Positions 1,514 to 30,864 of a stretch of DNA of 64,000 nt are shown here, piece by piece. A model generated the notes under the pieces. That model was not told the origin of the DNA and did no database searches. It saw only the letters and a program-made list of their open reading frames with translations. Both the position numbers and the translations under genes were made by a program. The stretch comes from Bacteroidaceae bacterium. GTDB lineage: Bacteria > Bacteroidota > Bacteroidia > Bacteroidales > Bacteroidaceae. Where the stretch lies: positions 62,001-126,000 of the forward strand of contig JAFXVZ010000044.1 of assembly GCA_017534535.1 (NCBI GenBank), written 5' to 3'. The first letter of the stretch is position 1. Each line of letters opens with the position of its first letter.

Positions 1514-1608
1514 CAACAAAAAACAAATCTTCTTCCGCTAAATCGAAATAGATTATATATATCAATGGCTGTCATGGCGGAAGAAGCGGTAGAAGAACGA
1601 TGTTTTTG
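1514..1608. repeat. Imperfect inverted repeat around an AT-rich loop
   Basis: The core arms CTTCTTCCGC (1529-1538) and GCGGAAGAAG (1577-1586) are perfect complements. An overlapping longer imperfect pairing joins 1514-1540 with 1585-1608. The loop holds TATATATA. It lies 70 bases after the RND stop codon and could be a terminator or a decayed mobile-element end; neither is proven. Confidence 0.5.
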
Positions 1609-1666
1609 GTGAATTATATGCTTAAAACAAGTGATAATGACCTCCTAATTATGCAATGCTTACGGT

Positions 1667-1839
1667 GGTCTTACACCTATTACCTACTGGTCTGATGGCG
1701 TATGCCCATTGGTCGGAAATCATAAGCTCGCTTGTCTGATGGTATAAGACCGAGAGTCCGTTGGTGTCTAACCGGCAGTCCGTTGGTGTCTGACCAATAG
1801 TCAGTACACGTCTGACTGGCAGTCTGATACTATTAGACT
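1667..1839. repeat. Array 1: eight degenerate near-palindromes in exact 22-bp register
   Basis: Eight 19-bp units start at 1667, 1689, 1711, 1733, 1755, 1777, 1799 and 1821, each followed by a 3-bp linker. Examples are AGTCCGTTGGTGTCTAACC, AGTCCGTTGGTGTCTGACC and AGTCTGATACTATTAGACT. Most begin (A/G)GTC and end ACC or ACT. The last unit is a palindrome about its central C with one mismatch per arm. The array fills the 1447-2070 gap between the convergent RND and lipoprotein genes. No open reading frame of note covers it. Confidence 0.85.
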
Positions 1840-1860
1840 CGGGCAGACTCAACTAATGTT

Positions 1861-2013
1861 GAATATCAGCTAATTACATAGTGTTACTCGCAAAGCAGTG
1901 GAGTTACATTGATTCGTAGCAACGATAAAGCTCGTACTTTTTCACTAAATATTGTTTTAGTTGCATAGTTACATTATGCATGTTAATCGCCTGATACTTA
2001 TTGACTCTCATTA
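1861..2013. other. AT-rich intergenic remainder, no gene seen
   Basis: This is the rest of the 624-bp gap between the RND and lipoprotein genes. I see no convincing coding region, RNA gene or promoter here. The gap as a whole holds the inverted repeat at 1514-1608, the 22-bp array at 1667-1839 and the hairpin at 2014-2040. Confidence 0.6.
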
Positions 2014-5733: not shown

Positions 5734-5802
5734 TGCATATTTTATTGGGTAGGGTTATGCATAAATATATGTATATACAACGCATTTTTTTATGCTCAAA
5801 TC

Positions 5803-5881
5803 TTGCTTCAAGCAAACGGCTCGATTACTTCAAGTAAAAGGGCTGATTAGTCCAAGTAAACCCACCTTTTGCTTCAAGTAA
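5803..5881. repeat. Array 2: four near-palindromes in exact 22-bp register
   Basis: The 13-bp cores TTGCTTCAAGCAA, TTACTTCAAGTAA, TTAGTCCAAGTAA and TTGCTTCAAGTAA are centred at 5809, 5831, 5853 and 5875, each 22 bp from the next. The first two are perfect palindromes about the central C. The array lies between the convergent glycosyltransferase and folB genes and is preceded by an AT-rich stretch (5759-5795). The same family recurs at 30758-30864. Confidence 0.88.
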
Positions 5882-6004
5882 ATGAAAGCATCTTCAAAAT
5901 CTCCTTTTTACATTCCATTTTATGAATACATATACAAAAATGATAACTCTGAATGAGGTATATGAACAGAGCACAGCAAACTTTTGCTATGTGCAAGCAG
6001 TTGT

Positions 6005-30757: not shown

Positions 30758-30864
30758 TGGGCACTTTAAGTGAATGCTTCGATTAGTCCAAGTAAAAGGG
30801 TCATCCTCCCGAAGTAAACGGGCCTTTTGCTTCAACTAATCGAGGCATTTGCTTCAAGCAAATG
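30758..30864. repeat. Array 3: five near-palindromes in exact 22-bp register
   Basis: Units are centred at 30767 (CACTTTAAGTG), 30789 (TTAGTCCAAGTAA), 30811 (CCTCCCGAAGTAA), 30833 (TTGCTTCAACTAA) and 30855 (CATTTGCTTCAAGCAAATG, a 19-bp palindrome about its central C). The unit at 30789 is identical over 13 bp to one in array 2, 25 kb away. It lies between convergent genes. Confidence 0.85.

Follow-up and report, generated by a model that had tools for sequence, protein, structure and literature searches.

A phased 22-bp array of diverged dyads, read as an internal site of small VapE-encoding mobile elements in Bacteroides-related bacteria

Phase and symmetry of the array

What kind of DNA site holds the spacing of its repeat units constant while their sequence diverges? 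Such an array occupies positions 1667..1839 (+ strand) of a 64,000-nucleotide stretch of Bacteroidaceae DNA, hereafter the window, and consists of eight 19-bp units, one per 22 bp, the better of which carry GTC...GAC arms. The best reading of the sequence comparisons is that the array represents an internal cis-acting DNA site within a small mobile element that Bacteroides-related bacteria carry.

The unit starts follow 1667 + 22n for all eight units without a slip. Lag-22 identity reaches 0.62 in the 132 bp from position 1663, which is the top value for lags 10-60 across the 64 kb, and none of 1000 dinucleotide shuffles of positions 1446-2070 matches the lag-22 score at any lag from 10 to 60 (best shuffle, 0.46). 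The exact 22-bp phase of eight 19-bp units, which a sequence-only reading of the window had described, is thus confirmed. The same reading regarded the units as near-palindromes, and this description fits a part of them. Palindromy is good in three of the eight units, including the last one, and is absent from unit 1, which the reading had quoted as an example (complementary pairs out of 9 for units 1-8: 1, 5, 3, 6, 3, 4, 6 and 8). Over all eight units, 51.6% of positions pair at the best dyad, compared with 41.8 +/- 3.5% in column permutations that keep the repeat and scramble its order, and 22 of 2000 such permutations reach the observed value. A looser dyad test (1656-1870, seven units) is weaker, in that its value is reached by 54 of 2000 dinucleotide shuffles and by 525 of 2000 column permutations, the latter not significant. 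A 67-aa reading frame on the minus strand (1649-1852) was set aside because 22 is not a multiple of 3, and a CRISPR array was rejected as an identity, given diverged 19-bp units with 3-bp gaps.

The autocorrelation check at lag 22 that the sequence-only reading had proposed was run on 464 kb, consisting of the window and a 400-kb sample that omits the known array places on contigs C31 and C5. With ORFs of at least 110 aa masked, 46 kb remain. In this non-coding DNA, lag 22 is the commonest lag, with nine peaks of at least 0.56, three of them inside the window, whereas each other lag has at most three; the coding DNA of the sample contains no peak at lag 22.

The element and its gene-less copies

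The window lies on contig C13 of the 2.7-Mb host genome (G000), which has two close relatives, G028 and G006. BLAST of window positions 1600-1900 against the host genome returns seven array places, the window included, and the similarity covers window positions 1651-1880 on C47, 1684-1899 on C5 and 1726-1900 on C1 (to 1910 in another run). Three of 60 other genomes have 27-36-bp matches to this array type, and no long match was found in the 60 searched. The C47 match (locus L008) starts 17 bp before a gene for a 697-aa protein (L008:2686-4779) and extends to the end of a DUF6078 gene. The 697-aa protein contains a BT4734-like N-terminal domain (PF08800, 1.4e-30) and a VapE-like domain (PF05272, 4.6e-29). 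According to the sections of PMC5862659 consulted, BT4734 is a named primase family, and VirE-domain (PF05272) ATPases are predicted helicases of mobile elements. Where these sections lead one to expect an acidic primase motif, the L008 protein reads LVLLNV by eye, and its BT4734 primase-like domain may be catalytically dead. AlphaFold models are too poor to be informative (mean pLDDT 44.4 for VapE and 45.9 for DUF6078).

The array on C47 is part of a 3.1-kb unit with the order end, DUF6078 gene, array, BT4734/VapE gene, end, and the same cassette lies inside inverted ends ~3.1 kb apart in L112 (G028) and L113 (G006). DUF6078 and VapE are the sole ORFs of at least 90 aa between the ends of L008 and L113, and L112 has in addition one 90-aa ORF that spans the array. 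By eye, an 8-9-bp repeat makes up each ~85-bp end, approximately twice on the outer side and approximately three times, inverted, on the inner side, and this repeat varies among L008, L112 and L113 (TTCGTAAG, TTCTTCCGC and TTCCGCTA). The complete element is a fold-back end, an accessory gene (DUF6078 or HU-HIG), the array, a VapE-type gene whose product often includes a primase-like BT4734 domain, and an inverted fold-back end.

When the G000 end was used as a probe on its own genome, it matched eight places, which make up four inverted pairs, each bracketing one array (C47, C21 and two on C31), so that four of the seven arrays of this genome are bracketed. Of the 13 rows of this search, the remaining five consist of one match at chance level and otherwise of self-matches in reverse orientation; no strong copy of the end stood unpaired. 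The arrays on C5 and C1 gave no ends with the two end probes used. Ends of the TTCTTCCGC type occur at two other places of G000, namely a solo fold-back end between two converging genes (C33:43713-43796, L136) and a partial end on C44, and the 7 and 6 kb read around them, respectively, contain no lag-22 peak of 0.5.

How much of the element is left around the window array? At 1529..1595 (+ strand; C13:63529-63595), a decayed left end with a fold-back of the TTCTTCCGC type matches the element end of G028 (E = 8.9e-7, 77%). The array is followed at 1840..1897 (+) by a leader that BLAST finds in common with the copy before an intact VapE gene, and at 1898..1945 (+) by a vestige of a VapE/BT4734 gene start, ~15 codons long with a broken frame, whose sequence ACATTGATTCGTAGCAACGATAAAGCTCG was aligned by eye to the VapE gene start in L008. 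A right end was not seen, and the copy therefore has one end only. One decayed end, the array and the vestige of a VapE start together indicate a decayed non-autonomous derivative, and the window array appears to be the core left by a small mobile element whose copy here has eroded and lost its genes.

Solo units that retain both ends are found at L005, L006 and L007 in G000 and at L092, L095, L096 and L100 in G006. These units are short and gene-less, bear terminal inverted repeats and occur in several copies, as MITEs do, and a gene-bearing copy with the same ends exists, whose genes are DUF6078 and BT4734/VapE and include no known transposase. Each of the three genomes has its own array sequence type, and nothing of the G006 type was found in G028. 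In G006, ten strong places carry the genome's own type, and one of them precedes a VapE gene; VapE matches in G006 occur only on C51 and C30, and the other nine arrays are thus without an adjoining VapE gene. G028 has three strong places of its own type. By eye, L085 of this genome retains a remnant of the DUF6078 gene, whereas in L086 the DUF6078 reading frame seems whole and the VapE start is truncated. The G028 and G006 copies look like internal deletions that retain the array. The left end of L085 belongs to the TTCGTAAG type, unlike that of its G028 parent, which suggests that ends and interior may be exchanged.

Orthologous neighbourhoods were compared for an empty insertion site. Ten orthologs of the mtaB neighbourhood were found, of which seven were compared by BLAST and four were read, with no array match. 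The four closest genomes share 88-91% protein identity at the mtaB and lipoprotein genes; the gene beyond them differs or is not reached in these relatives (L124 ends ~300 bp beyond the lipoprotein gene), and the comparison thus yields no clean empty site. At alaS, the DNA of the four relatives differs and partly consists of other repeats, again with no clean empty site. The flanks are AT-rich, and no clear direct repeat that could be a target-site duplication was seen by eye. Another 22-bp spaced palindrome pair, AAACCATAGGTTT, lies beside the orthologous lipoprotein gene in G026 (L122:780-830).

Arrays and dyads at VapE loci of other genomes

VapE/BT4734 proteins are frequent in the genus, with 104 matches in 24 of 61 genomes and up to 12 per genome. 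We collected 44 loci, namely the best 30 of the 104 matches from one search and all 14 of a second search, and compared lags at 40 of them after leaving out L050 and L057 (duplicates of L021 and L022) and two fragments (L056 and L062). The upstream count covers 38 loci, without L052, which coincides with L027, and L054, which has no DNA upstream, and the downstream count likewise 38, without L052 and L058. Upstream DNA was measured from the match edge, and this edge falls within the gene where a match is partial. Among 49 lags, 22 scores best upstream in 24 of the 38 loci (peak identity 0.50-0.79) and downstream in 2 of 38, among loci several of which are related and hence not independent, and most of which come from one GTDB genus. 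Another lag is best upstream in 14 of the 38. Strong 21-bp arrays are present at L032 and L037, and the array lies downstream of VapE at L039 (21 bp) and L040 (22 bp). In the 12 kb of L110, which holds the second full-length VapE gene of G000, no peak of 0.56 appears at lag 22. By eye, the units are alike within a locus and unlike between loci; most loci share no evident unit sequence, and the period and the dyads persist. The sequence-only reading had pointed to a phase that stays fixed as the sequence varies freely, and this behavior is real and recurs at other loci.

The accessory gene at these loci is DUF6078, in the same direction as VapE, or HU-HIG, in the divergent direction. Inverted matches of at least 17 bp flank 9 of 37 VapE loci, compared with 4 of 400 mismatched flank pairs, and those of at least 13 bp flank 18 of the 37, compared with 25 of 400; the other 19 loci have no inverted match of at least 13 bp within 1.5 kb. 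L114 has an array and no such inverted ends. The VapE proteins carry invariant Q-G-x-R-K-S-T and N-I-D-E motifs in alignment A1, which we read as Walker A and B, so that a VapE-family helicase gene with Walker motifs, as in a VapE-type replication module, is present. The same alignment is matched at 1.4e-6 by PDB entry 7pds, 'Similar to D. nodosus vapE'. Two VapE relatives and no DUF6078 relatives were found in viral contigs, and no literature was found on DUF6078. Two of three plasmid records examined show HU, a gap and VapE, and the third shows VapE without an annotated HU gene; among the plasmid rows listed, the annotations go no further than naming a BT4734/BF3469 family, a VapE domain or a DUF3874 protein. 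These records are not used as evidence because the neighbours priA and proC cast doubt on their true plasmid status.

Dyad symmetry was assessed in sets of loci that were picked for having an array. It exceeds repeat-preserving permutation (p < 0.05) in 18 of 28 arrays other than the window array, and not in the other 10. Within-unit pairing over 38 arrays amounts to 809, compared with 761 +/- 11 across units within the same array (z 4.3), in a statistic that counts related arrays as independent and whose centre was chosen on the data; p < 0.05 is reached by 6 of the 38 arrays individually, and p is 0.08 for the window array by itself. Dyad centres lie multiples of ~11 bp apart in several arrays, which implies that half-sites alternate approximately every helical turn and agrees with the earlier suggestion that the centres face the same side of the DNA. 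In 18 loci without DUF6078, 13 of which have a divergent HU-HIG hit, the whole array forms an inverted repeat, in which 637 of 985 pairs are complementary at the data-chosen best dyad.

A TAnnTTTG-like box, which we take to be a promoter-like motif, is located 18-25 bp before the array and reads into it in 12 of these 18 loci, compared with 9-11% of control windows. Of the 13 loci with a divergent HU-HIG gene, 12 have the box, and none of the other five does. At the loci with the box, the array is probably part of the beginning of the HU transcript, where an operator or leader role would be possible.

Candidate functions and known systems

What would a mobile element gain from phased dyads? 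That the array belongs to a mobile element is very likely. By analogy with the SaPI and SCC helicases, the array is probably an iteron-like origin for the VapE helicase. Taken on its own, origin function has somewhat less than an even chance, and element identity and origin function, weighted jointly, come out slightly better than even. The VapE helicase of the element would bind the phased dyads, open the DNA at the array and start element replication, and the iterated ends would define what is copied or inserted. Gene-less copies with the array and ends may be copied in trans by an intact element of the same sequence type, which would explain why each of the three genomes has its own array type. 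The retention of the array in solo copies with ends suggests a need in cis. A bolder proposal, which we regard as doubtful, is that these elements form a new class of transposable replicon without a recognised recombinase, in which a VapE-type helicase is the recurrent protein and the site is defined by geometry. Dyads every 11 bp with a period of 22 bp and no fixed sequence would then constitute the site, array and protein would drift together, and each host genome would carry its own type and its own swarm of copies without VapE. If the association holds, many VapE/BT4734 proteins would drive small mobile elements, and some of the intergenic repeats that lack an explanation in these genomes would be copies that lost their genes. 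The array thereby offers a testable case of a DNA site with conserved spacing and symmetry rather than conserved sequence.

Other functions for the array are less probable, and the most serious of them, though unlikely, is an operator. A dimeric repressor, such as the HU-HIG, DUF6078 or VapE protein, would coat the dyads and shut the adjoining promoter, and the element would regulate itself. The ~11-bp multiples between dyad centres and the box that precedes the array in HU-HIG-divergent loci are consistent with this arrangement. However, solo copies without either gene still keep the array, the array of the DUF6078 type sits between two co-directional genes, and five loci have the array with neither the box nor an HU-HIG hit. 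The same box, together with stable predicted folds (mean z ~ -6 on either strand, 23 loci chosen for their array), would also suit a transcribed array that acts as a structured RNA, a leader or small RNA of stacked hairpins, which we consider quite improbable. A tandem palindrome folds well on both strands by construction, and the strands do not behave as an RNA would predict: among the 18 loci without DUF6078, only 10 fold more stably on the strand that points away from VapE, and each of the five DUF6078 loci folds less stably on the operon strand. RNA is also not favoured by the mismatches, given that G·T (85) is not above A·C (80) in the 18 loci (p = 0.76). Rfam, run over seven array loci (L001-L007), reports only a tRNA at gathering score and no array family. 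The structured RNA 3' end that the sequence-only reading had offered as one option is not supported, on these grounds and because the array lies mostly upstream of VapE where an intact gene is present.

The array could instead be a functionless minisatellite carried in a MITE and homogenised by slippage or gene conversion. Such a process would account for units that resemble one another within and not between loci, and a MITE with a 23-nt minisatellite, BrickBuilt, is described for P. gingivalis in the sections of PMC4596501 consulted. Homogenisation is a poor match, however, for a period that recurs at VapE loci whose units have no evident common sequence, and for dyads that exceed repeat identity in 18 of 28 arrays, albeit not in the other 10; we consider this explanation very unlikely. 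The nucleoid or segregation site that had also been raised at the outset is the least credible, close to negligible. Phased dyads in several copies per genome would fit a site that organises or segregates the host chromosome, but the copies lie within units that have their own inverted ends, the array was not found beside the orthologous gene in four close relatives, and the unit sequence is genome-specific. The paired ends and genome-specific types led us to set a chromosomal structural site aside.

Plasmid iterons with ~22-bp spacing, such as those of R6K, F and P1, place sites every two helical turns beside the initiator gene; these sites are mostly direct repeats, nearly constant in sequence, to which winged-helix initiators bind. 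The present array similarly repeats its sites every two helical turns beside a gene, whereas its units are diverged and contain dyads. REP/BIME palindromes are genome-specific and dispersed and follow one parent gene, as the palindromes described here do; the RAYT protein is a Y1 nuclease, and no Y1 domain was detected in 10 element proteins scanned against Pfam. SaPIs carry an integrase. The ORF content of L008, L112, L113 and L120 includes neither the integrase nor the packaging genes of a SaPI-like phage satellite; in L120 (G006), no ORF above 105 aa other than a 402-aa VapE lies between the paired ends, whose type has no other strong place in G006. In the parts of PMC7581432 consulted, the SaPI Rep and SCC Cch2 helicases bind repeats adjoining their own genes, the SaPI/SCC iterons lie downstream of the gene as short direct repeats, Cch2 binding needs the direct repeats and is unaffected by deletion of the inverted repeats, and ccrC is named as a recombinase. 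To the extent of those parts, our element resembles SaPI/SCC in having a helicase gene with an adjoining repeat array, and a VapE structure has been solved (7pds); it differs in that the array is mostly upstream and has dyads, and SaPI/SCC carry recombinases.

The sequence-only reading knew of no named element with these properties, and the literature searched, which left most subscription journals and bioRxiv preprints outside its scope, likewise contains no description of this element; the parts of PMC5771137 and PMC10434189 consulted do not describe it. The nearest described element found is the BrickBuilt MITE of Porphyromonas gingivalis (PMC4596501). In the sections consulted, BrickBuilt is dispersed and intergenic, has inverted ends with a leader and a tail around tandem repeats, and occurs in copies without a transposase remnant, and its authors raise the possibility that an autonomous element requires the repeat. 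Judged against these sections, the two are alike as dispersed intergenic elements with inverted ends and with a leader and tail around repeats. BrickBuilt is described there with a 23-nt direct repeat without spacer and with 12-nt ends that match the IS5 family, in contrast to the 22-bp period, the diverged units with dyads and the ~85-bp iterated fold-backs found here, where copies with VapE and DUF6078 genes are also present.

A second 22-bp family with TTGCTTCAAGCAA units is represented in the window by arrays at 5800-5887 and 30770-30857, the latter of which has 20 places in the host genome at E <= 2.1e-7, itself included. One place of this family adjoins a 393-aa VapE gene on the same contig, and an array resembling this family precedes the 402-aa VapE gene of L120 in G006. 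By eye, L065 and L069-L073 (G000) are solo arrays of the second family between short inverted ends of the TGCATAAATATGCATAAA type, which are unlike the fold-back ends of the family described above (family A). Fold-back repeats of iterated 8-10-bp units (CTCCTCAC, ATCCCGAC, CCTTACAT and ACTTCAT) are observed at L068, L073 and L074 (G000) and at L142 (G006), where by eye they adjoin second-family arrays or stand alone, as if the ends were elements in themselves. Further lag-22 arrays at L148:1127 and L150:19269 (G000) consist of AGCTTCGACCT-like units and possibly represent a third family.
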